A stretch of 64,000 bases of DNA from Tridacna crocea (lineage: Eukaryota > Mollusca > Bivalvia > Cardiida > Cardiidae). The position numbers and the translations under genes were made by a program. The notes below the pieces were generated by a model that was given only the letters and a program-made list of their open reading frames with translations, was not told where the DNA came from and ran no database searches. The stretch covers positions 36,116,619-36,180,618 of the forward strand of contig OX031071.1 in the NCBI GenBank assembly GCA_943736015.1, in the 5' to 3' direction. Of the stretch, positions 19,930 to 43,840 are shown in pieces. How positions within the stretch are numbered: the stretch's first letter is position 1; every line of letters starts with the position of its first letter.

Positions 19930-20065
19930 GTGTTATCTTGAGCCTGAGGGAAAACACTTTTGAAAACATTGTGGGAAAAGAAGAAAATGCTGGTCGCCAG
20001 CATTTTCTTCTTTTCCCACAATGTTTTCTGCCTTATCAAAGTTAACTTCCATCATTTTAACTCCA
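19930..20065 (-). mobile_element. HP1 core, paired substitution
   Basis: The hairpin has AAAAGAAGAAAATGCTGG on the left and CCAGCATTTTCTTCTTTT on the right. The usual GGAG/CTCC is GAAG/CTTC in both arms. Outer ends are diverged. Confidence 0.8.
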
Positions 20066-20069
20066 TTTT

Positions 20070-20689
20070 ATTTAATGGATCGGGACAAATCTATATTTCG
20101 CTGATCTGGTAAAGTGTTTCTAAAATTGTACTGTTACTGTAATTATGTGCCATTTATAATAAAGGGTTAAAAAAACTACAACAACACGTATCAAAATGTT
20201 AATGATTATGTACTGTACGACGTTTCGGCACTTGCCTTCCTCAGGAGTACATAATAAAATAAATATTTTTCCATTAAATGAATATTTTTCCATTTATTAT
20301 AACACAGTCGAGCGATTCGGGGCCATTATGGCTCTCTTGCTTCATTTGTCACAAGGGTATCGTCATTTGTCATAAACGAAAATTTTCATAATAAAAAGCG
20401 TGGCAAGGAGGCGGAAAAGTAATAAATGAAAAGGGAGATAACTTTGATGAGAATAATTGGATCCTTACGAGATAGTGTTATCAGATTATCAGCCGCACAA
20501 ACAATCCGAATTGTGATGATGAATTTAATGTGAGATGTGAGATTTTTGGTTTATCATTCCTACAGGCATGTTATTATCGGTCATTAGAGACTGCAAAACG
20601 AGCAAGAAATAATCGAGTACAAAGTTTTTAGTTTATTTATCGTCGTTTAGGTTGCCCATAATGGCGACGCCCCAGGAAGACTATATTAG
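20070..20689. other. Stretch without gene
   Basis: It contains CGACGTTTCGGCACTTGCC near 20219, a phrase of the kind seen in transposon-derived repeats, and a TATTTTTCCATT direct repeat at about 20263-20300. Nothing else was recognised. Confidence 0.45.
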
Positions 20690-21316
20690 TTGAACGGTCA
20701 TGTGGTAGGGGACTTGGAAATTTGTTATACTGCAAAGAAAATTTCTCATGATCTGATTGGTTAACATGCCGGGAACATAATATCATGTTCCCTGGCTAAA
20801 ACCACGTAAAACCAGTTTCCCTTTTGAGTGCCCCGTAAACATCACTACACGTGCAACACAACATCCAAAATGGCGGCCTCGATCGATCACCAGACTACAC
20901 ATTTATGCACCAAACTGCACGTTTTAGTGACGTCATTTTCCAGTGACGTCAGTTTTCATTGAATTGGGGCACACAGAAGGGAATTTCTATTTTGTCAGCA
21001 TACTCGTTTCGTGAAATCATAAAACAGGAAAATTTCGCTTAACAGTATAATAAATTCGTTTTACGGTCAGGTAGCAGGGGACTTGGAAACTTGTTTACGG
21101 CTGTGGTGAATCATGTTTACTCCTCGCCTTCGGCTCGGGGCTACATGATTAACCACAGCCGTAAATAAGTTTTTAAGTCCCCTGCCACCTGACCGTACAA
21201 CTAATTTTGTTCACGGCTGTGGTGAATCATGTCGCCCCGAGACGAAGGCGAGGTGGCGACATGATTCACAACAGCCTTGAGCAAGTTTCTGAGTCCTCTG
21301 CCACATGACCGTACAA
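20690..21316. mobile_element. Nested TIR elements (ACGGTCAGGTGGCAGGGG type)
   Basis: Outer ends TTGAACGGTCATGTGGTAGG and CCACATGACCGTACAA are inverted repeats. Inside lies a TATACTGCAAAG-started block (20726 onward) containing AACATCCAAAATGGCGGC, then a second complete palindrome at about 21059-21200 (ACGGTCAGGTAGCAGGGG to CCCCTGCCACCTGACCGT, centre CTCGCCTTCGGCTCGGGG). The same modules recur at 26143-26642 and 44911-45343. Confidence 0.8.
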
Positions 21317-22485
21317 TTATTTTATCATACTACCAAGTTTTACCATTCAAACGTTTGTGAAGCGAATTTTTGTTCTGTTTTCTTTTGTTTAAGGAATTGA
21401 GTACACTGAAGAAATTAGAATTTTCCTTCATGCCCCATTTGAATGAAAAATGACGTCACTGGGAACTGACATTTTTGAAACCTTAGTAATACGTGCCAAA
21501 ACTTGCAGCTTGGCTCATAATCTAGAAATCTAAAAATCAGTATTTTCACTGGTCGCAACCATGAAATATCGAAAAAAAAAATTAAATTACCGTTATTTCT
21601 TGATAACCTACTGTAGAGCATGGGCTAAAATCTCATCATTTTCAATGCCATGGGCTTCTTCAGACAGCATAGATCTTGGATTTATGGCTGTTACGTCGAA
21701 TTGAGTATATCACAGCGACATCATACAATAGCTTGATAACTCATGCATGTGTCCTCATTCGTCGCAACTCGGTCGATTCCATATTTACATGTACATCTAG
21801 CCTCGTCCGAATCAATGTGATTTCCATTTCGGAATGAGAATCACGTGATTATATATATATAGCGCACCATTGACAGATGAAGTTATTCATATCTGTCTAT
21901 TTTTCGGCGAAAACTTCAATCGGAATTGATAAACTTCGTTAAAAAATGAATGTACAAACTGTTTGTAAACTAAAATATACTTAGAAAGATTTTGATAGAA
22001 AATTGAAACCAAAATGTTCTTTTGTAAGAGGAGCCTTACAATGTTCAGAACGGTAAACCGGCGTATTTCCGGGCGATGAATGTACCAATCTGAGGCATAT
22101 CAATCCACCAGTTACAGCCGAGGGATATGATGGCTCCCATCACCCGAAGTATGCTGAATGGCTTGTCCTAGGTTTCCCTATTACTAGGCTAGCGCTTTCA
22201 GGATTCTTGTCAAAGGACATTCACCATTGCAAACCAGAGTACACTAAACAAAGGTTACGAAGTTCTGGAAATTACCGATTCGCTAACAGGTGAAAAGAAC
22301 ACAAATAAAACCCAGTGTCCTTTAATGTTTAATGTATAACATAAACTCTCGGGATTACAGGAAAAATGTGCTAACTCTATATGAATACAATATGCAAATA
22401 GAGCCTTTTTCTTGCAGCCCCTTGGAAGTAATTGTAAGTGTTATTTATGGCTGAAGCTTTCTTGAAAGGCAGCTGTTTAGAGGAA
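21317..22485. other. Stretch without gene
   Basis: It has a short TA run at about 21851-21863. ATTACTAGGCTAGCGCTTTC near 22182 resembles the minus-strand SINE-like sequence at 54557. No supported reading frame. Confidence 0.45.
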
Positions 22486-22729
22486 TTAACTCTTTACCAC
22501 ACAACACCAAGATTTAACCATCCTGTAAAAGAAGACTTTTAAAAATATTGTAGGGGGAAAAAGGAGAAAATGCTGGTAACCAGCATTTTCTCCTTTTTTC
22601 CCCCACAATGTTTTTTCTTTATTCCTATCAAAGACAGAAATCATCACATCAGCTGCAGTAAAAAATTGTCGTCTGCAAATGCCTTAAATTTGGATCAATT
22701 GAATATGTTGTCCTAAGGGGAAGAGTTAA
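22486..22729 (-). mobile_element. HP1 with paired homopolymer expansion
   Basis: TTAACTCTTTACC to GGGGAAGAGTTAA. The hairpin stem has GGGGG and AAAAA on the left and TTTTTT and CCCCC on the right, against GGG/AAAA in the usual form, so both arms expanded. Confidence 0.88.
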
Positions 22730-22896
22730 GGGCCATTAAAACTCCACAATGTGCATGTGCCAGGCTTTGGAGTAGGCGACATAAAAACGCAATGAAATGT
22801 AACAATAATTCTAGAATGTGTCTGGCTTTTTGTGTATGCCTGAAGCTTTATTTACAGTCGAGAGTTCGGGGCAAACGACTTTTAAACGCGGTTAAA

Positions 22897-23530
22897 TTAA
22901 GAAATAATCCTCTTTCTATCGTGGTATATCGTTCATTCTAACATGACACGCGACTTTGGCTCCATAAACACAGTGCAAGGAAAACGTGGTAAAATCTGCA
23001 ACAATCCATGTAGAGTGACGTCATACTATATCGAGTGACGTCATTCAATGAGTGAGTTATTCAATGGAACATAATCTTCATCCGCGTTTTTACTCTAAGT
23101 TTGAACTTGTTTTCGTTTCACTAAGAATTTTCCATGTTAGAATCGAAATAATCTTCTTTCTATCGCCCTCGTGGATTATTTATTGTGCCGCATAACTCAC
23201 AACTGTGGTTTATTGAACGATATACCACGATAGAAAGAAGATTATTTTTTAATTCTAACATGACACGCGACTTTGGCTCTATAAACACAGTGCAAGGCAA
23301 ACGTGGTGAAATCTGCAACAATCCATGTAGAGTGACGTCATTCAATGAGTGAGTTATTCATTGGAACGTAATCTTCATCCGCGTTTTTACTCTTAATTTG
23401 AACTTGTTTTCCTTTCATTAAGAATTGGCCATGTTAGCTATCGCCCTCGAGGATTATTTATTGTGCCTCATAACTCACAACTGTGGTTTATTGAACGATA
23501 TACCACGATAGAAAGAAGATTATTTCTTAA
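22897..23530. mobile_element. TIR element in tandem, TTAAGAAATAATC ends
   Basis: The left end TTAAGAAATAATCCTCTTTC and right end GAAAGAAGATTATTTCTTAA are inverted repeats extending about 38 bp (through TATCGTGGTATATCGTTCA). An internal right end sits at 23215-23250, and the body (TTCTAACATGACACGCGACT) occurs twice, at 22936 and 23253. It looks like a tandem dimer sharing one terminus. Confidence 0.8.
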
Positions 23531-23574
23531 ATAAACCACATTTGTACTTCTTACTTCCTTTAGTGGAGCCGAAC

Positions 23575-23755
23575 CCCAAATGATCAGTCGGTGGCGTGCA
23601 GGACTTGAGAATACAGAATAGGTGGACGCGGGTTTGATCTCTGGCTCGGTCATCTTTTTTTTTTTTCTTCAAGGATTGATGATAATCATTGTGACAGGAT
23701 TCTTGCCTCTCCAACCGCTGACCATTGTCCCGACAATGCTTAATTTCTCTCAAAG
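23575..23755 (+). mobile_element. SINE-A head and body (plus strand)
   Basis: GATCAGTCGG and GGGTTTGATCTC sit at A/B-box positions, followed by GATTGATGATAATCATTGTG and CCGCTGACCATTGTC. It ends where an inverted copy begins. Confidence 0.75.
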
Positions 23756-23932
23756 CTATTGGCTGCTTTCCCACATAGCCATCGACCAGACAATGGTCAG
23801 CGGTGGTAGAGGAATGAATCTTGTTGCAATGACTATCATCAATCCTCGGAAAGAAATTGGCCGAGCCCTGGATCGAGCCCACGACCGCCTGTTCTCAAGT
23901 CTTGCACTGAGCTATCGGGGCTCGGCGTTCTT
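23756..23932 (-). mobile_element. SINE-A head and body (minus strand)
   Basis: CTGCTTTCCCACATAGCCATC, ACAATGGTCAGCGG, CGGAAAGAAATTGGC, GGATCGAGCC and GAGCTATCGGGGCTCGGC are the family read backwards. With the preceding copy it makes an inverted pair. Confidence 0.8.
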
Positions 23933-23998
23933 GAGACTAGTTGGTGAATATATACCCCAGGGTTCTGCTTTCAAAACGCCTCTTCACTCCGATCTTGC

Positions 23999-24227
23999 TG
24001 AACTCATTACCAAACGACATAATCTTAGGTTTGTCCGAATCGAAAGCATTTGCAGACAACAAGGTAAAAGTGAATGAAAATCTAAAATTTGTTTAGTGAA
24101 GGATAAAAATATTGTGGGAAAAGGAGAAAATGCTGGTTACCAGCATGTTCTCCTTTTTCCACAATGTCTTTTTAAAGGCTTCTATTACAGGGTCGTCAAA
24201 AGTCGTCATAGTGTGGTAAAGGGCTAA
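23999..24227 (+). mobile_element. HP1 hairpin MITE
   Basis: ACTCATTACCAAACGACATA to GTGTGGTAAAGGGCTAA; CCAGCATGTTCTCC has one unpaired change in the right arm. Confidence 0.87.
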
Positions 24228-24264
24228 TGAATCAAATTAAACTGTCAAGCCGATGGGAAGAAGC

Positions 24265-24475
24265 GTGGTGTCCGTGGCTGTGAGGTAGAGCGTCCGCCTC
24301 GTAACCATAAGGTTCTGAGTTCGATACTCGGGAGCAGGTGTCAACTTTGGGATTTTTCATTGGCCCACACATTCGGCGCGAGTTCTGGTGTAGTTCCCGG
24401 GAAGCAGAATCGAGAGAGATTAGTATAAATTGTAAGAACTTGTTTCTCAATCGATGTAAACTATATATGTTTAAA
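24265..24475 (+). mobile_element. SINE-B (tRNA-derived)
   Basis: GTGAGGTAGAGCGTCCGCCTC and GAGTTCGATACTC are A- and B-box regions. The body has TTTGGGATTTTTCATTGGCC, ACACATTCGGCGCGAG and AAGCAGAATCGAGAGAGATT, ending AAGAACTTGTTTCTCAATCG. Confidence 0.85.
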
Positions 24476-24530
24476 CTAACCCGAAAGACTTTTCTTAAAG
24501 TTCATAATGTGGAAGAAAATATTTTTCTTA

Positions 24531-24599
24531 TCAGACATTGTGGATCAAAGATCAGACTGCACGTTTCGTGCAGTCCGATCTTTGGTCTACATTGTCTGC
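24531..24599 (+). mobile_element. PAL2 palindrome
   Basis: TCAGACATTGTGGATCAAAG / CTTTGGTCTACATTGTCTG with centre GCACGTTTCGTGCAG. Confidence 0.82.
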
Positions 24600-24639
24600 A
24601 TAAGGTCAGTAAGTCGTGCTTAGCAGCTAAGGTGTTCAA

Positions 24640-24935
24640 ATAGACTAAACTATCGTTGTAATTCATAACATGATTCTAGACTGGTACAGATTGAAGCCTA
24701 GGTGTTCAGATAGACTCTTGTAAACTATTGTTGTAATACATGGCATAATTCTAGACTTGTACAGATTGAAGCCGAGGTGTTCAGATAGACTCTTGTAAAC
24801 TATCTCTCTAATACATGGCAAAATTCTAGACTTGTCCAGATTGAAGCCTAGGTATTCAGATAGACTCTTGTAAACTATTTTTGTAATACATGACAATTCT
24901 AGACTGTACAGATTGAAGCCTAGGTGTTCAGACAA
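24640..24935. repeat. 75-bp tandem repeat derived from an HP1 arm
   Basis: ACAGATTGAAGCCTAGGTGT-like blocks start at 24686, 24761, 24836 and 24908. The unit (CTAGACTTGTACAGATTGAA then GTTCAGA) matches the HP1 left arm (TTAGACTGGTCCAAATTGAA then TTTGCAGA). The last unit continues as HP1 (CAGACAACAAAATAAATGTG) to about 25080, where a worn hairpin follows. Confidence 0.78.
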
Positions 24936-25080
24936 CAAAATAAATGTGGATCAAATGGATCTAATGTACGTTATCTTTTAAGGCATAGAAAACATTGTAG
25001 CGAAAGAAAGAAATGTCGGTTAATCGCATGTTCTTCTATTTGCATCAAGTTTTCATTAGCCATCTCTTTCAGGGTTGTGT

Positions 25081-25296
25081 TTAACCTTGATCACACAATG
25101 ACGACTTTTAACGCCCCGGAGAAAGAAGCCTTTTGAAAACATTGTGGTAAAAGGAGAAAATGCTGGTCTCCTTTTCGAACAAAGTTTTCTACCCTATCAT
25201 AGCAAATTTGCGCCATTTGTGCCACTTTGAAATTGTCATCTGTAAATGCTTTCAATTTGGTCAGGTCTAAAATTTTGCTTTGTGGTAACGGGTTAA
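25081..25296 (-). mobile_element. HP1 lacking one hairpin arm
   Basis: GGAGAAAATGCTGGT joins directly to CTCCTTTTCGAAC, so most of the right arm is gone. The rest (AAATTGTCATCTGTAAATGC, GTGGTAACGGGTTAA) is typical. Confidence 0.83.
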
Positions 25297-25398
25297 TTAA
25301 AACGAGGGACTATTGTTATAAAGGACGTTGCATGGAAGTGAGTTTAGTGTCCGAAATGGGCCTGCAACACGCGACAAGGGGCATTTGGACATTTGCGT

Positions 25399-25561
25399 AA
25401 AGTGTCGTCTCGGCTCAGCCTGCGCAATCCACAAAGACACTTTCCGTTTGTTATGTAAATTTCTGTTTTGCGGAAGTCTACTGAAGTACACAGTCTAATG
25501 TAGTCGTAAAGTGCCGTTTCGGATTAAGCTCGTCCGCGCAGGCCGATCCGAGACGACACTT
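25399..25561 (+). mobile_element. PAL3 double-palindrome element
   Basis: Two imperfect hairpins (AAGTGTCGTCTCGGCTCAGC at left; GTGCCGTTTCGGATTAAG / CCGATCCGAGACGACAC at right) are separated by TAAATTTCTGTTTTGCGGAA and TCTAATGTAGTCGTAAAG. The same two-hairpin layout recurs at 48957-49140. Confidence 0.75.
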
Positions 25562-25611
25562 CAGGCAAATGTACGAATGCTCCTTTTCCCGTTTTGTAAG
25601 CTAGTTATGTG

Positions 25612-25785
25612 ACGCAGCGTCGGCCTCGTAATCATAAGGTACTGAGTCCGATACCCGGGAGCGGATGTCAGTTTTAGGACTGTTCATTGGCACACACATT
25701 CGGTGCCAGTACTTGTATAATTCCCTGGAAGCAGAATCGAGAGGGAATAGTGTAAGTTGTTAGAACTTGTTTCTCAAAAGATATT
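25612..25785 (+). mobile_element. SINE-B, head truncated
   Basis: GCGTCGGCCTCGTAATCATA and GAGTCCGATACCC followed by the family body and AGAACTTGTTTCTCAAAAG. Confidence 0.8.
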
Positions 25786-25794
25786 GAGGTAGAT

Positions 25795-26142
25795 CTAGTA
25801 GACCCGTAACACTCCTAGTACAACATGGAATAAAATTTCTTGGTAGTTGATAAATACGGATTTATACAGATATAATATATTTGCACATTTTCAACCGATC
25901 AGAAATTCCTTTGATGTCTATTTTGAAATTATTTGCTGGTATTTTTGTTAGTTTTCAGAAAAGGGAGGTAATTCTTATCTCCCTTTCTAATGAGAATATA
26001 GTGGTTTTAGATTTATAAATGACAATTCTAAGGAGAAAAAAAAAGGGAAAAAGTGGTTCGGTTAAAGTAGATCTAGTACAATAATACCCATTTTTGATTG
26101 CAGCAAATTTTGAAGGATAACATCACACTGGAAATAGCTTTT
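25795..26142 (+). mobile_element. TR-G element, copy 4, right end interrupted
   Basis: GTAACACTCCTAGTACAACA, TGTCTATTTTGAAATTATTT and GGTAATTCTTATCTCCC are family blocks. The right end stops at GGAAATAGCTTTTTTTTT, where a TATACTGCAAAG element begins. Confidence 0.8.
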
Positions 26143-26642
26143 TTTTTATTATACTGCAAAGAAATTTCTCGTGATCTGATTGGTTAACATACCGGGAACA
26201 TAATATCATGTTCCCTGGCAAAAACCACGTAAAACCAGTTTCCCTTTTGAGTGCCCCGTAAACATCACTACACGTGCAATACATCATCCAAAATGGCGGC
26301 GTCGATCGATCACCAGACTGCACATTTATGCACCAAACTGCACGTTTTAGTGACAGAAGTTTCCAGTGACGTCAGTTTTCATTGAACTGGGGCACACAGA
26401 AGGGAATTTTTATTTCGTCAGCAATCTCGAATCGTTAGAGTATACAACAGGAAAATACGCGCCTTGAAAGGGTAAAACTTTGCAGTATAATAAATTCGTT
26501 GTACGGTCAGGTGGCAGGGGACTTGGAAACTTGTTCACGGCTGTGGTGAATCATGTCGCCACCTCGCCTTCGGCTCGGGGCGACATGATTAACCACAGCC
26601 TTGAACAAGTTTCCAAGTCCCCTGCCACCTGACCGTACAACT
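26143..26642. mobile_element. TATACTGCAAAG element plus ACGGTCAGGTGG palindrome
   Basis: ATTATACTGCAAAG (26147) and CTTTGCAGTATAAT (about 26479-26492) are exact inverted ends of the first module. It is followed by a large palindrome, TACGGTCAGGTGGCAGGGG to CCCCTGCCACCTGACCGTA. Sequence between them includes AAAATGGCGGCGTCGATCG and AGTGACGTCAG. It is related to 20690-21316. Confidence 0.85.
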
Positions 26643-26790: not shown

Positions 26791-28074
26791 TTACTCGCGA
26801 GCGGAAACAAGAGTTTTAATACTTTCAAAAAGACGTTTTACACCATGTCTAAAATTCTGATTGTAAAAACAATAAATAATTGGATTCATTGCACAATTGA
26901 TTAGATATGATCTAAGAAAGAAGTGGTATGCCATTTTACTTCCGGTTGACATCTGATCGTACATATTCGGGTACTGGTTCCTTAAACTAACTATAACAAG
27001 ATACGGAATGAAACTTACTTCGAATACGAATGTTACTAAAAATAGCATGCATGTCAATCGTTTTGTTCTGAAAATATGTCCGCCATGTTTTCGTGAAAGA
27101 CTGAGATCGATTGTTGATTGGCTGCTGGATGTCCTTGACACCTTTCTCGGATTTCCTCGGCCGTCATCGACGTCCTGCTGTCGTATGCTCGTATGTTTCG
27201 TACTAAATGAGAGCACAGAATAAGAACTGTTTTGTCTTTGAAGTAAAATACTTTGAGATGATTTTGACATGTCCGAGTTTTGAAATTTATGCTGCAACAC
27301 AAGCTTCCTGGCGATGCATATATACAAAAAAGCTAACACAATGAAAACAACGATATGCCCTACAAAGAAATAAATCAACAAGAAATTGGGATATGACGTA
27401 TTTCTTACGTCATCGTCTATGAGACAGGTTTTCCCATGAACTGTGACGTTGTACACAGTAACTGTATACGTGAATGTACCATAACCCCACACCATAGGCA
27501 AGGCAGACAAAATGGCGGCCGTTGCTATGGATAAGCAGATCATTTTAGTGAAGAATGACGTGTAACGTGGTTTTAATGGTGTACAAATAGAACGGAACCT
27601 CTCCACTGCAATTGCAACCAGGACAAAAGAAGATGTGTTGTTCATGGCGGCCGTTAGAAAGCGAGACAACTTGCACAACCATGGAACGTCGAATGTACTG
27701 AAATGAGTGATCAGGTACATTTCCATTGGCAAACTAACTAAACAATTAGTTAAATCGCTGAGTGCCAGAGTTATTATGAAATAACCGGCGGTGCTACGTT
27801 TCATCTTTGTTATATAAACCATGACAGCAATCATGTTTCCGGGAACTCCCAATACTAACAGTATACACGCTAAAATAAATGACGGTGTCAATATGTGAAA
27901 TTGCGATTGATTCATTATCTTCAACACTTCCGTCACGCGCTCGGTGTCAGTTCTCCCGGATGTGTCCGGATTATAAACATCCGGGAGGCTTGAATTTCCA
28001 AGCATGTTTCCAATTTCGCTGATAACTATGTCTGTGGAATTAATCCCCATGTTAGCGTTATTGGAGAGTGCCAT
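26791..28074 (-). CDS. Class A (rhodopsin-like) G-protein-coupled receptor, orphan
   Basis: Predicted plasma-membrane receptor that would signal through heterotrimeric G proteins; the ligand is unknown. Counting from the chosen Met, TM1 spans about 64-88 with G79-N80. TM2 has LALSDL with D107. C134 before TM3 and C217 in the second outer loop could form the usual disulphide. The DRY position reads E158-R159-F160. TM6 has S-F-I-P (354-357) where CWxP is usual, and TM7 has NPIIY at 397-401, followed by a short helix-8 segment. N12, N27, N55, N209 and N225 are NxS/T sites on the outer side. The third inner loop is long (about 84 residues) and serine-rich, with a PKA-like R-K-V-S at 310-313. The frame is intronless. 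It stays open to a GTG at 28119, but a stop lies immediately before that; the first ATG is at 28074 (purine at -3, G at +4), giving 427 aa. A peptide-type receptor is likely from overall pattern; subfamily is uncertain. An upstream non-coding or short coding exon is possible. Confidence 0.93.
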   Translation of the reverse strand: MALSNNANMGINSTDIVISEIGNMLGNSSLPDVYNPDTSGRTDTERVTEVLKIMNQSQFHILTPSFILACILLVLGVPGNMIAVMVYITKMKRSTAGYFIITLALSDLTNCLVSLPMEMYLITHFSTFDVPWLCKLSRFLTAAMNNTSSFVLVAIAVERFRSICTPLKPRYTSFFTKMICLSIATAAILSALPMVWGYGTFTYTVTVYNVTVHGKTCLIDDDVRNTSYPNFLLIYFFVGHIVVFIVLAFLYICIARKLVLQHKFQNSDMSKSSQSILLQRQNSSYSVLSFSTKHTSIRQQDVDDGRGNPRKVSRTSSSQSTIDLSLSRKHGGHIFRTKRLTCMLFLVTFVFEVSFIPYLVIVSLRNQYPNMYDQMSTGSKMAYHFFLRSYLINCAMNPIIYCFYNQNFRHGVKRLFESIKTLVSARE

Positions 28075-28119
28075 TTCACATGTAACAGGTTTAACAAACA
28101 ACACAGTTTTAGTTTCCAC

Positions 28120-30221: not shown

Positions 30222-30300
30222 TCGTCGGTTTACTTCGAAAACCTCGTAAATACAGCTTGTCACAAGCTGTAGTTACGAGGTTTTCGAAGTAAACCGACGA
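30222..30300. mobile_element. PAL4 palindrome, nearly perfect
   Basis: TCGTCGGTTTACTTCGAAAA to TTTTCGAAGTAAACCGACGA, with arms of about 38 bp and a two-base centre; one AA/GT mismatch near CCTCGTAAATACAG. Confidence 0.88.
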
Positions 30301-32629: not shown

Positions 32630-32860
32630 TTAACCCATTACCACACAATCCCTACTTTTGACGACCCTTAGAAAGATGCCTCTTGAAAACATTGTGGGAA
32701 AAGGAAAAAATGCTGGTAACCAGCATTTTCTCCTTTTCCCACAATGTTTTCTACCCTTCACAAAACAAATTTCAAATTTTCAGTCACTTTTATTTTGTTT
32801 TGTCTACAAATGCTTTTGATTTTGACAAGCCTACAATATTGTTGTTTGGTAATGAGTTAA
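32630..32860 (-). mobile_element. HP1 hairpin MITE
   Basis: TTAACCCATTACCACACAAT to TTGGTAATGAGTTAA. The left stem has GGAAAAAATG against TTTTCTCC on the right, one unpaired change. Confidence 0.9.
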
Positions 32861-34989: not shown

Positions 34990-35343
34990 AAACGTTTTTG
35001 CAATAGAGAAATTCCGTGAGTGATTGACTGATCGACCCACCGATCGACCGATTGACTGCCTGTTTGATTGTTTGACAGACTGACTGACTGTTTGACTGAC
35101 TTGACTGACCGTTTGACTGGCAGACAGACTGCCAACTAACTAACTAACTAACTAACTAACTCACTCACCCACTCACTCACTAACGGACGGACGAACGAAC
35201 GAAATAACTAACTAACCAACGAACGAACTAACTAAGTAACTAACTAACTGACGAACGAACGAACTAACTAACTAAATAACTAACTCACTCACTCACTCAC
35301 TGACGAACGAAGTAACTAATTAACTAACCAACTAACTAACCAG

Positions 35344-35380
<37 letters not shown>

Positions 35381-35425
35381 GAACGAACGAACGTACTCAC
35401 TCACTCACTCACTCACGCATCGACC
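34990..35425. repeat. Tetranucleotide-rich tract (ACTA, ACTC, ACGA, GACT)
   Basis: A long imperfect run of TGAC/GACT then AACT/AACG/ACTC units, changing unit type along its length. Confidence 0.9.
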
Positions 35426-35969
35426 GACGAACGGACTGATTATACCCCAAGTTACGTTGACAAAGTTGAGTAAGATCTTCCTGTGTTCTAAAAACTTGTC
35501 AAATTCATGGAGTCATGATGAATGCAGGAAAAAAAACCCCAAAGATTTCCGGTTAGCCCTGTCTTAATAACGCCCGTGGTAGAATGCCATTGCGTCAGGA
35601 ATTTTCAATTTGTTTAAAATTCACCGACGTCAACCAAGATCAAAATGATTGCGTCACATCGTTATTGGTTTCCGCTACGTTACGTCTACGTCAAACACGT
35701 TCGTGCTGTGTTGGACCGGTTTTTACGTCATTGACGTTGTGAAACTTTCATCTAGCGTGAACGAGATTTAACCAACCAAAGTAAAGATAAGATAAGATCA
35801 TTATTTAGCTTTTTAAACCATAATTCTGCGTGATATAGTGGGAACTCGGTGTAGCGTGAAAATGATTAAGTAACCAAATTAAAGGCACGTTATTTAACTG
35901 AAACATTGGTCTAGCATGAATGAAATTCAACTAACAAAACTATTTTATTTTAACTAGATTATTTTTACC
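35426..35969. other. Stretch without gene
   Basis: Several ACGTCA-containing motifs occur between 35620 and 35750. No repeat family or frame recognised. Confidence 0.5.
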
Positions 35970-36205
35970 CTTTCACCCATTACCACTCAATCCCTACTTT
36001 TGACGACCCTGAGAAAGAAGCCTTTAGAAAACATGGTGGGAAAAGGAGAAAATGCTGGTAACCAGCATTTTCTCCTTTTCCCACAATGTTTTCTATCCGT
36101 CAAAAAAAACAACAAATTTCAAATTTTCAGTCACTTTTATTTTGTCGTCTGCAAATGCTCTCGATTTGGACAAGCCTAAAATATTGTAGTTTGGTAACGA
36201 GTTAA
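35970..36205 (-). mobile_element. HP1 hairpin MITE
   Basis: CACCCATTACCACTCAATCC to TTGGTAACGAGTTAA. The left TTAA is mutated; the hairpin is complete. Confidence 0.87.
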
Positions 36206-36262: not shown

Positions 36263-36688
36263 ATAATTCAACAATTAGGCCCAAATAAACGCAAAACAAA
36301 TTTTCATCCTAAAAATTTAACGGCAATGATTGCAATTTCAGGTTTGCTTAAATTTCTCTATAGAGTATCAGAATCGTATCAGTTGAAACAGACACTGCAG
36401 ATCAAATATCTGCAAAATCACGGAGTGAAAGATTACAAAGTAGAACAAATTTTATCACTTCTTGCTTTGAATCAAAAAGGAAGTTTTATATAAGTCTGTC
36501 TATGTTACTAAACAAGCTTTCATGCGGAAACCTTGCATAATGAATGCGCAATAATTAAAAATGCATTTGTCATGCATTATTGTACTGGGCAAACGAGGTG
36601 GTTAAAAGGCAAACCGCACCATATCTTTGTGATACAGTTTTCTGTACAAAATAAAATTGAAATTATTCTAATATCATATTAATGTGAT
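36263..36688. other. Stretch without gene
   Basis: Nothing recognised. Confidence 0.5.
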
Positions 36689-36881
36689 AACGTTTAATTG
36701 ATTGATTGATTGATCGATTGATTTATTGGTTGGTTGATTGGTTGGTTGGTTGATTGATTGATTGATTGGTGGGTGGGTTGGTTGGTTGGTTGGTTGGTTG
36801 GTTGATTGATTGATTGATTGGTGGGTGGGTGGGTGGGTGGGTTGGTTGGTTGGTTGGTTGGTTGATTGATTGATTGGTTGG

Positions 36882-36922
<41 letters not shown>

Positions 36923-36925
36923 GCT
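36689..36925. repeat. (TTGA/TTGG/GTGG)n microsatellite
   Basis: Blocks of TTGA alternate with TTGG and GGTG runs over about 235 bp; the plus strand is T/G rich. A 168-aa minus frame across it is an artefact. Confidence 0.92.
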
Positions 36926-36961
36926 TATCCCGGTTTTCAACATTATCTCAGGTATGTCTCT

Positions 36962-37160
36962 TGTGGTGTCCGTGGCGCGTGAGGTAATGCGTCGGCCATA
37001 ACCAAAAAGTCCTAAGTTCGATACCCAGGAGCGGGTGTTAACTTTGGGATTTGTTTTTGGCCAACAGATTGGCTGGGGTACTGGTATAGTTCCTAGGAAG
37101 AAGACTCGAGAGAAATTAGTATAAGTTGTAAGAACTTGTTTCTCAATTGCTGTAAAATTA
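36962..37160 (+). mobile_element. SINE-B
   Basis: GTGGTGTCCGTGGCGCGTGA, AAGTTCGATACCC, TTTGGGATTTG, GACTCGAGAGAAATTAGTAT and AGAACTTGTTTCTCAATTGC. Confidence 0.82.
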
Positions 37161-37164
37161 AGGT

Positions 37165-37315
37165 TTATCGCGGCAGCCAATGAACCTATCTATACTTTCC
37201 CAGAGGTTCTTTTACCAGTACTCCACACAATGTTCGTTCCTAGCCACCGGCTGCTTTCCCACATAACCATCGTCGAAACAACGGTCAGCAGTGAGAGAGA
37301 AATGATTATCTCATG
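37165..37315 (-). mobile_element. SINE-A fragment (minus strand)
   Basis: CGGCAGCCAATGAACCTATC, AGGTTCTTTTACCAGTACTC and GGCTGCTTTCCCACATAACC are the reversed body; the head is absent. Confidence 0.7.
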
Positions 37316-37339
37316 CTTTCAGGTAGGATATCGAGAAAT

Positions 37340-37745
37340 AGCAGTGAAAATATTTTTCGATCTTACACTGGTACCACCAGTGAAAATACCGATTTTCACG
37401 TTTTTGTTGCCTAGGTAAATTGCCCGTGCCTGGCAACCATATGGAAATATGACGTCATATACCGTATATTTCTCGCGCTTGACGTAATATTGTAATGCGT
37501 TGCTATGCGGGAGAGGTACGCCACGGGGAATGACGAAAAAGAACTGCATTGGATTTTGATAAAGCTCCTCCCAGAAAGGGTTAAAAGCATGAAATAAACA
37601 GAATATTTTTCTTTTTCGGTGAAAGATCGAAATTTATTTCATCTCGTGGACACCATCGGCAATATTTTCACTCGTGGCTGCGCCACTCGTGAAAATATTA
37701 CCAATGGTGTCCACTCGATGAAATAAATTTCGACCTTTCCCCGAA
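37340..37745. mobile_element. Repeat with ATTTATTTCATCTCGTGG palindrome
   Basis: Left part GGAAATATGACGTCATATAC, TTTCTCGCGCTTGACGTAAT and GGGTTAAAAGCATG. Right part is a palindrome at 37620-37740 from GATCGAAATTTATTTCATC to GATGAAATAAATTTCGACC around ACTCGTGGCTGCGCCACTCGT. A second copy at 43020-43480 carries an HP1 in its TTAA. Confidence 0.8.
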
Positions 37746-38160
37746 AACGACAAATATCCTCTATATCCTGTCGCAATGACTATCGTCATTCGTTGGACAG
37801 AAATTGGCCAAATAGGTTTAAAATCTGTCATATTGTTACACTGATAAAAATAAACCCAAACGCTTGTAGAACTCGATGTTTTTGATGCAATACTGTACAG
37901 TTCTGAGGTATACCGCTATAGTAAATATATCGCACTGATCCTTATCAAACTTTGAGTAGTATACCATATTGGTATCTATGTTTTTTTAATGACAGAATAT
38001 TTCCGTTTCGCCGATTCCGTGATCGTAAGATTAAATTCATTAACTTTTCTACGATTGAATCCCCGGAGATTTAGAACAAAATGGAACCCCGTGAAGCGAA
38101 ACTGGTAAGTGTGACAAGTCAGTTATTAACTTCTTACTCTGTAAAGCTCGATTCACTGAC
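37746..38160. other. Stretch without gene
   Basis: Nothing recognised apart from CTGTCGCAATGACTATCGTC near 37769, a SINE-A-like phrase read in reverse. Confidence 0.45.
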
Positions 38161-38166
38161 TTTTTG

Positions 38167-38233
38167 CGGACAGTGTAGATCAAGATCAGACTGCAAAGAA
38201 CGTGCAGTCTGATCTTGGATCTACACTGTCCGA
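38167..38233 (-). mobile_element. PAL2 palindrome
   Basis: CGGACAGTGTAGATCAAGAT / GATCTACACTGTCCG with centre CTGCAAAGAACGTGCAG; loop order GAACGT shows reverse orientation. Confidence 0.85.
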
Positions 38234-38302
38234 TAGTGGTCACATGTTCCCCCACCCCAAATATCGGAATTTGTTTGTTTTTTTTATTTTTACCATCGGC
38301 TT

Positions 38303-38386
38303 TTAAGGTGATACCATTCTAATGGAAAACAGCTATTTCAGGTCGAACAAATTTCCACTATAATATTATCCTAAAAAATATATATA
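38303..38386 (-). mobile_element. TR-G right-end fragment
   Basis: TTAAGGTGATACCATTCTAA, TGGAAAACAGCTATTT and TTTCCACTATAATATTATCC are the reversed right end of the family. Confidence 0.75.
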
Positions 38387-38425
38387 TGTTTAAAAATGAT
38401 TATTGTTGTACTACTTTCACCGAGC

Positions 38426-38427
<2 letters not shown>

Positions 38428-38468
<41 letters not shown>

Positions 38469-38515
38469 ACAGAGACAGAGAGACGGACAGACAGACAGGC
38501 AGGCAGGCAAAGACG

Positions 38516-38551
<36 letters not shown>

Positions 38552-38663
38552 GACAGAGCGGGGAAAGATAGATGGGAAAGACCGAGAGAGAGAAAGAGCA
38601 AGATAGAGGGGACAGAGAGACGGACAGACAGACAGATAGACAGGCAGGCAGCAGGGGACGGTC

Positions 38664-38696
<33 letters not shown>

Positions 38697-38715
38697 GACA
38701 GAGAGAGAGCATACG
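38428..38715. repeat. (GA)n / GACA / GGCA compound microsatellite
   Basis: GA runs at about 38429-38465, 38518-38550 and 38665-38690 are separated by GACGGACAGACAGACAG and GGCAGGCAG blocks that occur twice. Long frames on both strands are artefacts. Confidence 0.92.
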
Positions 38716-39048
38716 AGTCGAGAGTAGATACAGGATTAGGTTGATCCACATTATATACAAAAAATTATTCTAAATTTAGCTTTTTACTTTTCGCAGTTGC
38801 ATCAAACCCTTTTTTGACAGAGCATAGTTGATATCTATATCTGCATAGTCAACTTTACAATACAGATTGTATATTTCGCTAATGTAATAACATCATGTAT
38901 TATATAACTACTATTATAAAGTGTAGTACACAGAATCACACGAAAAAAGTCGACATATATATATAAAAGCAATTCCAACTAGGAAGCTGACCATTAAAAA
39001 GTAGCATTTTTATTGTAAGTGCTTTATATTATCGTAAGTGGATTTATA

Positions 39049-39430
39049 AACCTTTGCCAGATGACAACAGTTTAAAACTGGTTCACGATGAAAGCATTTA
39101 CAGATGACAAGTTAGATGTAATAAACATCATCAACGATTTTTTTTTGCAACAAACCCTATGTTGTGGGTACTCATTAGAATCGTCTCGAGGAGACGATTC
39201 TAATGAGTACCCACAACATAGGGTTTGAATAAGCAATAATGGATTTAGAATACCATCTCTTCCCCTTACCTGGAGCTCTGTAAAATATGATTGTCAAAGG
39301 ATAGCATTTGCCTGCATAGATTATTAAAAAAAACAACACACAGACAGCGCGGTAAAAAGAATTTTCTCATTTTACCATATGGTCCTTAAAGGATCCTTTC
39401 CTGAAGTTTATCAAGTTAGGTCGTGTTTGT
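39049..39430 (+). mobile_element. Degenerate HP1 split by a palindromic insert
   Basis: CCTTTGCCAGATGACAACAG, GAAAGCATTTACAGATGACA (left arm) and GGTAAAAAGAATTTTCTC / CATTTTACCATATGG / GTTTATCAAGTTAGG (right half) are recognisable. About 200 bp including a perfect palindrome lie between. Confidence 0.6.
39151..39227. repeat. Perfect 37-bp-arm palindrome
   Basis: CAAACCCTATGTTGTGGGTA... runs to 39187, then a GAG loop, then the exact complement to ...TACCCACAACATAGGGTTTG at 39227. No mismatch in 37 pairs. It does not match another palindrome family in the window. Confidence 0.95.
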
Positions 39431-39431
39431 A

Positions 39432-40215
39432 TAATGGGGGTTACCTACAGGATCACTTTTGTTACTAACAGGCGTCACATTGCATTACTTACAGGCAGGC
39501 GTCACGTTGCATTATTTACAGGTGTAACTTTGCATTACTTACAAGCGTCACCTTCTATTACTCACAGGCGTCACTTTGTATTACTTACAGGCACCACTTT
39601 GCATTACTTACAGGCGTAACTTTCTATTACTCACAGGCGTCACTTTGCATTACTCACAGGCATCACTTTGCATTACTCACAGGCGTCACTTTCTATTACT
39701 CACAAGCGTCACTTCTATTACTTACGGGCGTCACTATATATTACTTACAAACAGCCGTTACAACGCATTACTTAAAGGCGTTACTTACAGGCACTGAGAG
39801 ATGTTACCCTCTATTAATTTTACTTACAACAGACATTACCCTGCATATACTTAGTCGTCGCCCTGACATTACACTGCAATTCTCACAGACATCACCCTGC
39901 ATTAATTACAAATGTCACCCTTCATTTCTTACAGGCATCACCCTGCATTTATTACAAGCGTCATCATCTAAACTTACATGATCATCCTGCTTTACTTACA
40001 GGCATCATCCCGTATTAGTTATACATGTGAGTCTGTATTACTTACAGGTGTCACCCTGCTTCAGTCTGCATCATTTGTAGGCGTCACCCTGCGTCAGTCT
40101 GTATTAGTAACAGACGTCACCCTGCGTTACTTAAAGGCGTCATCATGTGTTACTTACAGCTGCAAACCGCTTACTACTTACAGGTGCAACCATGCATTAC
40201 TTACAGCGTCGCCCT
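39432..40215. repeat. 23-bp minisatellite
   Basis: CACTTTGCATTACTCACAGG plus CGT repeats at a 23-bp spacing (for example CAGGCGT at 39611 and 39634, CAGG at 39657). Units become more variable to the right (CACCCTGCATTA). Roughly 30 units. Confidence 0.9.
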
Positions 40216-40249
40216 TAATAACAAATCGGTGTCAATAGCTCTAATCAAC

Positions 40250-40311
40250 GGACCAAACTGCACATTCTGTGCAGTCAGATATCAACATGATATTTATTCA
40301 TACTGTTTGCA
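40250..40311 (+). mobile_element. PAL2 palindrome, worn
   Basis: CCAAACTGCACATTCTGTGC then AGTCAGATATCAACATG; most of the outer stem is mismatched. Confidence 0.55.
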
Positions 40312-40391
40312 AAAGTGCATCAGCTAACCTGGGTAACTCTGTAGTTACATGTAGTATATATGACTCGTAACCTGGTGATTGTGAATTCCAT

Positions 40392-40450
40392 ATGGTCGGT
40401 TTACTTCAAAACCTCGTAACTACAGCTTGTTCAAGCAGTAGTTACTCGGC
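40392..40450. mobile_element. PAL4 palindrome, partial
   Basis: GGTCGGTTTACTTCAAAACC TCG arm with CAGCTTGTTCAAGC centre; the right arm breaks off after AGTAGTTACTCGG. Confidence 0.7.
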
Positions 40451-40561
40451 AATATATAGTTTAGACAAACTTCTTTTCCGCCATTCCTTTCTGATGCATG
40501 TAGTACCGGTAAGCAAATAAAAAACTTTAGTGACTTTGAAAGAAAATCGTGTCAGAGCCGG

Positions 40562-40764
40562 TGTAATGCAGTGAAATGACCCACTCCTACAAAATGACCC
40601 ATGGGTCAGAAATGACTTCTGGAGTCATTTCTCTACGTAGAATAATGTCCCCAGTCATTCGTCCACGTAGTGAAATGACTTCTGGGGTCATGTCTCTACG
40701 TAGAATAATGTCCCGGGTCATTCGTCAACGTAGTGAAATGACCCATGGGTCCTTTTGCATTACA
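40562..40764. mobile_element. FB1 fold-back element
   Basis: TGTAATGCAG and TTGCATTACA ends; flanks CCGG (40558-40561) and CTGG (40765-40768), one substitution apart. Interior repeats ATGACTTCTGGGGTCAT and CTCTACGTAGAATAATG blocks. Confidence 0.85.
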
Positions 40765-40768
40765 CTGG

Positions 40769-41138
40769 CGTGAGAAAGTCAGGAAACACATGTGTAGGTA
40801 AGCTAGCATTCGCGATAAGGTCTGTAAAAATTATTTTAAACCCCTATACTAAAAAAAAAAACAAGCATAAGTGCATAAAGGCGCACTAAGTAGGTGATAC
40901 ATAAATGAAATTAAGTCCAGACACTGCCCCCCCCCCCCAAAAAAAAAAACCGCTAAGTACACGAAGGGGTGGGGGATATCCTGTTAACCAGAGGTCACCT
41001 TTTACGACAAGTGGCATTGTACGTTACGTATTTGTAGATACACGTAATAATGCCAATATTTGGCGACGACAAACATTCACATATGTCGAAACTGTCAATG
41101 GAAACAATTAATTTTAAACCCGATTTACAAAACCTTCT
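40769..41138. other. Stretch without gene
   Basis: Poly-A at about 40851-40861 and C10/A10 runs at about 40928-40949; nothing else recognised. Confidence 0.5.
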
Positions 41139-41369
41139 TAAAACCTATATCAAACGAAAAAATAATGGACTCGGCCAAATTCAAAGCATTTTTTGGACAC
41201 AAATTAGATGTTCATAAGATTATATTTGCTGTCTTTGATAGAGTAGAAAACTTGGCAGGAAAAGGAGAAAATGCTGGTTTCCAGCATTTTCTCCTTTTCC
41301 TACAACGTTTTCAAAAGCCTTCTTCTTCAGAATCGTTAAAAGCCGGGATTGTGCGGTAAAAAAGTTAAA
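41139..41369 (+). mobile_element. HP1 with paired stem change
   Basis: ATCAAACGAAAAAATAATGG to GTGCGGTAAAAAAGTTAA. The stem reads GCAGGAAAAGG and CCTTTTCCTAC, so the usual GGGAA/TTCCC became AGGAA/TTCCT on both sides. Confidence 0.85.
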
Positions 41370-41552
41370 CACTGCATGAAATGACACAAATTTAGACGAA
41401 TCCAAATCAAAGCATTTTGCTGACAAGAAATCTCATTGTAACTCAAATGAACGTAGAAAACTATTCTGGGTAAAAGAAAAAATGCTTGTTACCAGCATTT
41501 TCTCCTTTTCCCACAATATTTTTAAGAGCGTTTTTTTTCCCACTATGACCTT
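41370..41552 (+). mobile_element. HP1, right end truncated
   Basis: CACTGCATGAAATGACACAA, CCAAATCAAAGCATTTTGC, hairpin AAAAAATGCTTGTTACCAGC / CATTTTCTCC. It abuts HP1 copies on both sides. Confidence 0.75.
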
Positions 41553-41780
41553 TGAACCCTTTACCACACAGCAGAATTATGGACCTATCCAAATCGAGAG
41601 AATTTGCAGATGATAATTTCATATTGGCTCAAATGATTCAATTTTTCTTTGGTACAGAAGAAAACTTTATGGGAATAGGAGAAAATGCTGGTTATCAGCA
41701 TTTTCTCCTTTTCCCACAAAGTTTTCAGACGGCCTCTTCCTCAGGGTCGTTAAAAGTCGTCATTCTGTGGTAAAGGGTTA
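41553..41780 (+). mobile_element. HP1 with paired stem change
   Basis: TTGAACCCTTTACCACACAG to TGTGGTAAAGGGTTAA. GAAAACTTTATGGG and CCCACAAAGTTTTC share the CTTT/AAAG change relative to CATT/AATG. Confidence 0.88.
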
Positions 41781-41966
41781 AATAATACATAGTGTGGCAA
41801 AAGGTTAGATAAAGAGGATTAAAGAAAACAAGAGAAGAATAATAATGTGAACAAGATTACTAATGGTCAATTGATATAAGGACATTGGTCAAATCTTAGA
41901 GAGCTTAAGAGGTCAAAACGTGGTCAAGATGGTTGACTTAAAGAAATACAGGATATTTGTTTCTTT

Positions 41967-42078
41967 TTCGGTGAAAGATTGAATTTCATTACATTGAGTG
42001 AACATCATCGGTAATATTTTCACGAATATTAAAATATTGTTAAAATATTACTGGTAATGTTCATGAGATGAAATATAC
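41967..42078. mobile_element. Palindrome related to 37620-37740
   Basis: TGAAAGATTGAATTTCATTA, ATCGGTAATATTTTCACG and CTGGTAATGTTCATGAGATG form a worn version of the same fold-back. Confidence 0.65.
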
Positions 42079-42277
42079 AGTCAGACATCAGTTAAGCATC
42101 ACCAGAACAAATTTAGTCATAATTTTTTCAATGGATATCCATTTATTTGGTATATTTTCTAGCTATACACGCACCCATTAGACAAGTAACAGGCTGCTTT
42201 ATGAGCCAAATGAAAGGATGGCTACGAGAAAATTTTTCGAAGCCCACAATATAGATTTCGATCCAAAAAAACCCAAA

Positions 42278-42408
42278 TCGTCGGTTTACTTAAAAAACCT
42301 CGTACCTACAGCTTGTTATGAATATTTCGTCGGTTTGCTTCAAAAACCTCGTAACTACAGCTTGAAACAAGCTGTAGTTACGATGTTTTTTGAAGCAAAC
42401 TGACGAAA
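42278..42408. mobile_element. PAL4, one and a half copies
   Basis: A single arm (TCGTCGGTTTACTTAAAAAA CC... AGCTTG, 42278-42316) is followed by a complete hairpin (TTTCGTCGGTTTGCTTCAAA to TTTGAAGCAAACTGACGAAA, 42326-42408) with an AAA loop. Confidence 0.83.
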
Positions 42409-42448
42409 TATTAATTTCGTACTTCTTATTCCCCTCCTTTTTTTTGTG

Positions 42449-42482
42449 TACGTGTGGGGGGGAGGGAGGGGTGGTTGGGGGG
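42449..42482 (+). other. G-run cluster, potential G-quadruplex
   Basis: GTGGGGGGGAGGGAGGGGTGG then TTGGGGGG: four or more G runs within about 35 bp. Confidence 0.65.
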
Positions 42483-42484
42483 TT

Positions 42485-43019
42485 TACATCAATTAGATCA
42501 GGGGTAACAACCTATGTCATAGCATATGTCATCGGAGACATTTTAAATCCGCCATTTTCGTTTTAAAAGGTAAGTTTTTCAGCTTGTACATTATTGTTAT
42601 TGAAGATCTGTCCAAACACAGCAGTGCATATGGTACCTGACAACTTTTTTCGTTAGTATACATTAATATTTTGTTCATTAGTTTCGATGATTTTGCAATT
42701 ACCTCCGCACAATTTTCGAAGCCGGTGACACATGTGCGATTTAAAAATAGATGTCGTATACAATGCCGTTAAGAATAATTGTGTTGAAGTGTTTAGAGCT
42801 ACAACATTGTTTCATGGCATTTTGATTTCACAAATAGGACAAATATATTTACCGTCACCAGATGACGTAGGTATTCTAAGTAAATTTTAGAAAAATATAT
42901 CTTTTTAAAGTAATTAATCTGCACTTTGCGCACAAAATGGTGGCTATTCTGACACCTCTGCTATGACGTAGGTTGTCACTCTTGATTGTTACGACCACTT
43001 TTTATAATTCTTATTCTTC
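42485..43019. other. Stretch without gene
   Basis: CCTATGTCATAGCATATGTC at 42513 and CTATGACGTAGGTTGTCACTC at 42960 look loosely inverted (GTAACAACCTATGTCATAGC vs GCTATGACGTAGGTTGTCAC), so a TIR element of about 480 bp at 42505-42985 is possible; no frame. Confidence 0.5.
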
Positions 43020-43480
43020 AATTGAAGCCTTACAACCAGACGGAAATATGACGTCATTTAGCTTACATTTCTCGCGCTTGACGTAACATTGTAATGCGTT
43101 GTAATGCAGGAGGGGTACGGCACGGGGAATAACTGAAAAAACTGTACTGGATTTTGGTAAACATCCTCTCAGAAAGGGCTAACCCTTTACTCCATAGATA
43201 CTCATTTCCACGCATTGCTTGTAAGAGCCTTTGGAAAACATTGTGGCAAAAGGTGAAATTGCTCGTCACGAGCAATTTCACCTTTTGTCACAATGTTTTC
43301 TATGCTATCAAAAGGTATAATATACACATAAGAAACAGCTTCATCCTTGCTGTTATTTAGGGTCAATTAGAGATACCATAGAAATGCCTTATGGGGTAAA
43401 TGGTTAAAAGCATGACATAAATAGAATATTTGCGGTTTTTTTCGTTAAAAGATCGAAATTTATTTCATCTCGTGAATGAG
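43020..43480. mobile_element. Copy of the 37340 repeat, carrying an HP1
   Basis: CGGAAATATGACGTCATTTA, TTTCTCGCGCTTGACGTAAC and AGAAAGGG match the left part of 37340-37745; AAAGCATGACATAAATAG and GATCGAAATTTATTTCATC resume after the HP1. It ends early at CTCGTGAATGAG. Confidence 0.85.
43183..43403 (-). mobile_element. HP1 variant inserted at TTAA
   Basis: Between CTAA (43179-43182, one substitution from TTAA) and TTAA (43404-43407) lies CCCTTTACTCC to GGGGTAAATGG with a GTGAAATTGCTCG / CGAGCAATTTCACC hairpin. The unoccupied site is AAAGGGTTAAAAGCATG at 37577-37591. Confidence 0.93.
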
Positions 43481-43504
43481 TTTAATTTGTTCAAATATCT
43501 TTCT

Positions 43505-43612
43505 GCATGGCTGTTTTGTACCTGCAAGTCTATAATTATGAATAACTTCCGCTCATTAGTAAGAACAAATTGTATATCAATGAAAATAAACCCTTTGGTT
43601 GATATGCACGAC
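43505..43612 (-). mobile_element. PAL2-family 3' body without hairpin
   Basis: TAATTATGAATAACTTCCGC, AGTAAGAACAAATTGTA and AATAAACCCTTTGGTTGATA are the reverse of 30465-30575. Confidence 0.7.
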
Positions 43613-43840
43613 TTAACTTTTTACCAAACGACAGAATTTTAGACTAGTCCAAATCGAAAGCATATGCAGACAACACAATAAACATGACTGAAAAATTGAA
43701 ACTTGACTTTAGAAGAGTAGAAAACATTGTTGGAAAAGGAGAAAATGCTGGTTACCAGCATTTTCTCCTTTTCCAACAATGTTTTCAAAAGGCTTCCTTT
43801 TCAGGGTCGTGAACACCAGGGATTGTTTAAGAAAGGGTTG
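43613..43840 (+). mobile_element. HP1 with paired stem change
   Basis: TTAACTTTTTACCAAACGAC to TTTAAGAAAGGGTTGA. The stem reads ATTGTTGGAAAAGG and CCTTTTCCAACAAT, i.e. both arms changed relative to ATTGTGGG/CCCACAAT. Confidence 0.9.

Follow-up and report, generated by a model that had tools for sequence, protein, structure and literature searches.

The CMITEs of Acropora corals are elements of about 100 bp, estimated at about 1,600 copies in one species, which the portions of the report drawn on here link to a piggyBac-like transposon and describe as forming tandem arrays, with CCCTTT tips in most families (PMC2872659). Kolobok transposons also duplicate TTAA at their target sites, and KolobokP is rich in bivalves according to the sections of the survey used here (PMC9587614). 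A different literature concerns quasipalindromes, imperfect inverted repeats whose arms become identical by template-switch correction; in the parts of two accounts considered here, such correction is expected to leave matching changes on the two sides, sometimes more than one together (PMC8604942, PMC8794818). The cases published in those parts come from genes in strains, from microRNA and rRNA stems and from bacterial assays. Here we describe a highly multicopy repeat, HP1, in 64,000 nt of the bivalve Tridacna crocea (assembly GCA_943736015.1, contig OX031071.1, positions 36,116,619 to 36,180,618; this whole stretch is called the window, and its own numbering is used below). The two arms of the HP1 palindrome carry complementary changes well beyond chance, and at a probability of roughly 0.58 we explain these paired changes by subfamily inheritance together with infrequent arm-to-arm copying, probably by template switching.

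The HP1 element and its palindromic core

HP1 is a palindrome of 67 bp, with two 33-bp arms around one central base (arm positions are numbered 1–33 from the outside inwards). Alignment of copies with their surroundings placed it at the center of an element of ∼229 bp bounded by TTAA, which starts roughly with TTAACYCWTTACCAAACG and ends with GGTAAWGGGTTAA. With up to two mismatches allowed, the window contains 83 occurrences of the 13-mer GTGGGAAAAGGAG, where 1.4 would be expected. A TTAA target duplication was seen where one HP1 element entered another HP1 copy (57103–57501); the interrupted host, GGGTCG-TTAA-AATTTGGG, continues beyond an insert at 57131–57354 that is flanked by TTAA on each side. 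Among 29 full-length window copies, TTAA is found at the left end in 17 and at the right end in 21, the remainder being eroded or different. Where TTAA is present, the right tip read inwards is CCCT (7/21) or CCCA (6/21), and the left tip is CTCT (5/17) or CCCT (3/17), so that the commonest left tip has T second. The piggyBac-type motif is CC[C/T]T at both ends in the same portions of the coral report (PMC2872659), and HP1 tips with their TTAA appear roughly piggyBac-like, though at the left end CTCT outnumbers CCCT. Assignment to a Kolobok MITE (miniature inverted-repeat transposable element) is disfavored: TTAA is common to both, but Kolobok tips are RR..YY in the sections used (PMC9587614), whereas the commonest HP1 tips are CT/CC and GG, i.e., mostly YY..RR. 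Judged from sequence, HP1 is the palindromic center of a highly abundant and apparently non-coding DNA transposon, a MITE that duplicates TTAA at its target sites.

A profile built from 19 copies detected 59 non-overlapping HP1 pieces in the window, 44 of them across the palindrome, which together cover about 12.7 kb of the 64 kb. Elsewhere in the genome, twenty 10-kb stretches yielded 115 palindrome-spanning copies, with HP1 present in 16 of the 20; scaled up, 115 copies per 200 kb would correspond to about 600,000 copies genome-wide, an extrapolation from a small, non-random sample. Within the genome of 1,048,827,098 bases, a 13-nt stretch of each arm is intact at 117,086 places. No known RNA family in Rfam matched within the window, and the exact arm stretches had no match in viral or bacterial collections. 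Literature on MITEs, piggyBac, molluscs, palindromes and template switching, a coverage outside which most subscription journals lie, yielded no recognized description of the HP1 element.

HP1 and the CMITEs, as the latter are described in the portions used, are alike: both are short and non-coding, both duplicate TTAA, and in both the interior is better conserved than the terminal repeats. They differ in length (about 229 versus about 100 bp) and in number, HP1 having both arm stretches intact at more than 100,000 places. The conserved core of HP1 is a near-perfect palindrome.

Matching changes in the two arms

The initial annotation had drawn attention to hairpins in which both arms deviate from consensus at matching positions. 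The six paired changes it named are present (G20A at 19994, a 4-nt lengthening at 22577, G12A at 41278, A7T at 41692, G12T at 43752 and T8C at 49342, the last beyond the range the annotation gave), as are three unpaired changes (G22A at 32717, T9G at 36059 and G20A at 50639). The copy at 43752 is the sole one of the six paired copies without an unpaired arm change, and at 22577 the lengthened runs of the two arms differ letter for letter. Across the 44 palindrome-spanning window copies, 27 changes are paired, where shuffling the right arms between copies predicts 5.75; a further 69 are left-only and 73 right-only, and there are 6 non-matching doubles. Much of this window excess arises because related groups share A26T and G31C. 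Without 8 subfamily or duplicate copies, 10 paired changes were observed against 3.4 expected (p 0.0025), and without those copies and edge position 1, 7 against 2.6 (p 0.013). Position 1 was excluded from later tests on account of edge misalignment.

The main test set started from 219 palindrome-spanning copies in 309.8 kb. Removal of 15 copies fetched for paired G12T and of four of the five tandem L011 copies left 200, removal of copies with more than 8 arm gaps left 182, and 156 remained once the 26 copies bearing A26T, G31C or both had been taken out. The five L011 copies (about 888, 2740, 4592, 6446 and 8301) lie at ∼1.85-kb steps with equal counts of arm and flank changes, and this HP1 element was apparently caught in a tandem array. 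In the main test, made on the 100 of the 156 copies with no more than six arm changes each, 21 complementary doubles were observed against 4.8 expected by re-pairing of arms, while non-complementary doubles numbered 8 against 5.1. The expectation that arms within a copy would be more alike than chance allows is thereby borne out. Without position 8 the complementary doubles were 13 against 3.2 and the non-complementary 6 against 3.8; without positions 7, 8 and 12 they were 9 against 2.5 and 3 against 2.5. Grouped by number of arm changes, paired changes stood at 9 against 1.9 in copies with 0–3, at 12 against 3.6 in those with 4–6 and at 17 against 11.5 in those with 7–10, and the 18 copies with at least 11 showed no pair excess (12 against 14.1).

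Length changes were counted in 197 copies (the indel and central-base counts include the 15 copies fetched for paired G12T). An indel was found in one arm of 26 copies and in both arms of 6, with matching or nearly matching arms in 2 of the 6. The two arms of L033_2202p show the same two differences, an inserted C and G14A, which make one clear two-change tract, and W_22607m has a near-matching 4-nt lengthening in both arms; matching indel copies of this kind are the trace expected from copying one arm onto the other.

Genome-wide, position 12 was counted within 16-base arm stretches otherwise at consensus (15 bases in each arm), in five classes: consensus, G12T single, G12T paired, G12A single and one non-matching class. 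The counts are termed whole in each table and lower bounds in the general description of the search. Position 12 is at consensus in both arms at 63,231 places, G12T occurs in one arm at 5,820 (forward 2,910 and reverse 2,910, an equality that is apparently chance, as the strand counts for single-arm G12A and for the non-matching class are unequal; were the single-arm figure a total rather than per strand, the G12T excess would be larger), and G12A occurs in one arm at 7,807. G12T is matched in both arms at 879 places against 134 expected for independent arms, and the non-matching control, T in one arm and A in the other, is found at 604 against 359. With the non-matching class taken as an age control, 225 matched G12T places are expected and the excess is 3.9-fold; the 650–750 excess pairs equal about 11–13% of single-arm copies. 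At position 17, for which doubles only were counted genome-wide, 85 places are changed in both arms. Complementary changes, counted by eye, make up 20 of the 30 displayed, against an expected fraction from base frequencies of 0.375 (p 0.001) or 0.345 (p 0.0003), and all three substitutions are represented among them.

These counts bear on coincidence combined with uneven age or mutability, by which old copies would have changed at the same site in both arms. Such an origin accords with non-matching doubles that also exceed simple expectation (604 versus 359) and with the lack of pair excess in the most diverged copies. Age acts on both types of double alike, yet the matching class exceeds its control 3.9-fold, and it is the copies with the fewest changes that show the strongest excess. 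The non-matching control rules out pure chance, and we give coincidence in this wider form almost no credence.

Shared descent and probable copying between arms

Some paired changes clearly descend from common sources. A26T and G31C are both paired in 18 of 146 copies, and the five of these that could be placed lie on one internal branch of a 97-copy flank tree (HP1b copies with both changes, from a diverged family, were not placeable in it). A second group, made up of six close relatives, has T8C in both arms, and some of their neighbors have it in the right arm only. These two groups, HP1b and the copies L025 and L027 are clear cases for the main rival explanation, subfamily inheritance only, in which two ordinary source mutations were multiplied by transposition and no arm copying took place. 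It is favored as well by the larger share that paired events take of arm changes on internal than on terminal branches (4.5 among 33.6 internal versus 19 among 354 terminal in the 97-copy tree; about 5 among 28 versus 4 among 132 in a 41-copy window tree), and by young G12T-paired copies being somewhat closer mutually than young copies in general.

Inheritance alone fits less well with the scatter of the G12T-paired copies. The 14 with usable flanks (of 16) require 13 changes on a 137-tip flank tree, while randomly assigned labels on the same tree require 13.5, with a minimum of 11 over 500 draws. Within the youngest subfamily, the five such copies have no more flank changes in common than five members drawn at random (p 0.42). 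On the terminal branches of the 97-copy tree, paired-site coincidences amount to 32.5 against 16.3 at shifted sites (highest 24), and the excess persists without GCTCGT-marked copies and position 8. W_41667 and L032_2256 are likewise paired where most of their nearest relatives are unpaired: A7T is in the left arm only in six near relatives and in both arms in these two, and among the six copies in the set most closely related to the element at 41554–41780, five show it in the left arm only. The both-arm test gave p 0.018 for this group, which was picked after inspection, and p 0.065 over all 16 left-arm A7T copies, so that as a sign of arm copying the A7T group is suggestive only. The scatter supports matching changes beyond shared descent, not for every case, and inheritance as the sole cause is in our estimation rather unlikely. 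Of the two origins proposed in the initial annotation, spread from source copies is upheld by the A26T with G31C and the T8C groups, and templating by one arm is favored by the complementary-selective excess and the G12T scatter; on present evidence subfamilies explain some of the pairs, and probably not all.

Under the combined explanation that we prefer, some paired changes would have arisen in transposing source elements and then multiplied as subfamilies, and others would have arisen copy by copy, a mismatch of one arm being copied onto the other. The simplest route would be a polymerase template switch inside an extruded hairpin at replication, i.e., quasipalindrome correction. Because the excess G12T pairs amount to so small a fraction of single-arm copies, hairpins mostly drift apart after insertion. 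Arm copying, if the cause, is infrequent and probably of short tract. The stronger proposal, that each hairpin is a self-correcting sequence, fails. The 156 copies hold 298 left-only and 348 right-only changes, 50 paired changes and 40 non-matching doubles, so that unpaired changes outnumber paired ones by ∼13:1 (646 versus 50). Related insertions, too, share unpaired changes: A7T confined to the left arm, G12A confined to the right arm in three relatives, and G13A in HP1b. This unpaired majority, with mismatches that survive duplication and transposition, rules out a fully self-correcting hairpin.

Several observations weigh against even occasional copying between arms. Two pairs of segmental duplicates have retained their unpaired mismatches, eight in both 5262 and 11299 and three in both 9283 and 15719, with none resolved, over what was a short time. 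The inner 23-mer palindrome is perfect in 25 of 47 paired-G12T copies, 56 of 95 single-arm copies and 61 of 96 consensus copies; paired-G12T copies are thus no cleaner elsewhere in the stem, and there is no sign of whole-arm rewriting. Template switching can invert a central base; here A replaces T at the center of 10 of 52 copies with pairs and of 13 of 108 without, no clear difference. Where both arms have an indel, the two do not match in four copies of six. L025 and L027, both paired for G12T, are close relatives (flank distance 0.12), which makes part of the G12T excess inheritance. The distance among G12T-paired copies (0.272) is slightly below that to other copies (0.304), among the five young ones it is 0.099 versus 0.144 for young copies generally, and two flank variants each occur in 4 of these 5 versus 15 of 36 others; some young G12T-paired copies may share a recent source. 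As for the genome-wide figures, the full count covers one position (12), its control is itself 1.7 times simple expectation, and coincidence, going by that control, would account for about a quarter of the G12T pairs. Compared with the template-switch cases in the parts of the accounts considered, HP1 has unpaired changes far outnumbering paired ones and shows no clear loop inversion or whole-arm rewriting (PMC8604942, PMC8794818).

The core is also better conserved than the rest of the element. In 30 full window copies, difference from consensus was 4.5% in the arms, 17%/14% in the terminal 16 bp and 21%/17% in the other flank, and in 146 copies it was 8.7%/10.0%, 16.2%/15.0% and 22%/26%, respectively; counted copies had to span the palindrome, which exaggerates core conservation. 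The consensuses of three subfamilies differ at 0 of 66 arm sites and at 19, 31 and 35 of 152 flank sites. HP1b has a left flank that aligns to HP1 no better than chance (p 0.41), and its right flank aligns. The core therefore seems conserved in copies that transpose. Private changes in the youngest subfamily affect 3.6% of arm sites versus 5.8% of flank sites, and lower arm divergence was not taken as proof of local homogenization, as terminal branches include evolution of the source. An origin of the arms from the terminal repeats was set aside, four local comparisons (p 0.05 to 0.37 versus shuffles) being too weak. Two rearrangements touch the palindrome: 10123–10287, a duplicate of 4043–4251, has lost 44 bp of the palindrome center, and 9375–9653 carries a tandem duplication with its junction at AGCATTT. 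Both fit a hairpin disturbing replication, the known setting of template switching in the parts of the accounts used (PMC8604942, PMC8794818).

Identical arms between diverged flanks are what would be expected of selection for an intact hairpin, as an RNA stem or a protein-binding cruciform, with compensatory changes favored; the arm region folds as DNA at −39.3 kcal/mol. Selection on single copies of so abundant a repeat is in our judgment implausible, however, and though it could act on source copies, many pairs are found in single copies. What is conserved, moreover, is sequence and not pairing alone, relatives tolerate unpaired changes (A7T, G12A, G13A), and Rfam gave no match in the window. 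We regard selection as a quite improbable source of the pairs. Gene conversion between elements, in which whole palindrome haplotypes are copied and land in unrelated flanks, would explain both the low arm divergence and the scatter of paired variants across flank clades. It should spread unpaired haplotypes equally, by itself has no preference for complementary doubles, and sits poorly with the private changes in the arms of the youngest copies; this too we hold to be very unlikely.

Individual copies, neighboring features and implications

Of the six named paired copies, the full element at 43614–43840 (+; nhmmer profile match, model positions 2–228) has the private paired G12T in a palindrome at about 43720–43786 (the copy at 43752 above). 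Profile matches also delimit the element with A7T in both arms (41554–41780, +, palindrome at 41692), one with G12A in both arms and additional unpaired changes (41142–41360, +, palindrome at 41278) and one with an eroded end and G20A in both arms (19940–20116, −, palindrome at 19994). The element in which the G/A run is 4 nt longer in each arm lies at 22487–22728 (−, palindrome at 22577), and a member of the GCTCGT subfamily with paired A26T, G31C and T8C at 49257–49482 (−, palindrome at 49342). Of the diverged HP1b family, a profile match at 43181–43314 (−) has paired G14C, A21T, A26T and G31C and unpaired G13A, and the element at 15653–15786 (+) is a segmental duplicate of 9217–9350 with the same three unpaired mismatches in both. 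The nested element noted above (57131–57354, −) lies between host pieces at 57355–57501 and 57103–57134, and an element with consensus arms (53181–53383, −) has an arm region that folds as a 34-bp DNA hairpin.

The window also contains a head-to-tail duplication of ∼6 kb (3935–10014 and 10013–16370; 84–90% identity in three aligned blocks), in which the inner HP1 copies were duplicated. A separate palindromic repeat family, GGGTCATTTCTCTACGTAGAGAAATGACCC, often at ∼64-bp steps, occurs at 5532–6091, 11566–12046, 40607–40748, 48403–48607 and 63139–63553. A second palindrome family (GGACAGTGTAGATCAAAGATCAGACTGCACGTT...) has nine listed copies (9742, 16097, 17143, 24521, 32312, 43841, 51739, 51877 and 52047), several of which share a one-base difference in arm length, an unpaired feature that seems inherited. 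Two near-perfect long palindromes without HP1 arms (29/30 pairs) lie at about 30225–30297 and 39153–39225. Dense short tandem repeats, mostly of 8–12 bp and also in 23-bp steps, are found at 60269–61285, 35118–35465, 36650–36969 and 39466–39966. An open reading frame at 26791–28119 (−) encodes a rhodopsin-type seven-transmembrane receptor domain (Pfam PF00001, E 6e-31; the Pfam scan covered this receptor gene only).

How long the two arms of a hairpin stay matched has been asked for many years, mostly of rare events in genes. With the same palindrome at more than 100,000 places in one genome, arm matching becomes a counting problem, in which mutation, arm copying and inheritance are separable by setting matching and non-matching doubles against a flank phylogeny. 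HP1 joins the coral CMITEs as a TTAA-type MITE with a middle more conserved than its ends, and raises the question of what role that middle has. A more speculative possibility, which we consider doubtful, is that the palindromic core acts as two mutual backups, a low and steady rate of template switching changing both arms in one step. If so, the core would evolve along symmetric paths while being the most conserved module of the transposon, above the ends, and the genome of T. crocea would be an exceptionally large natural record of arm-to-arm copying.

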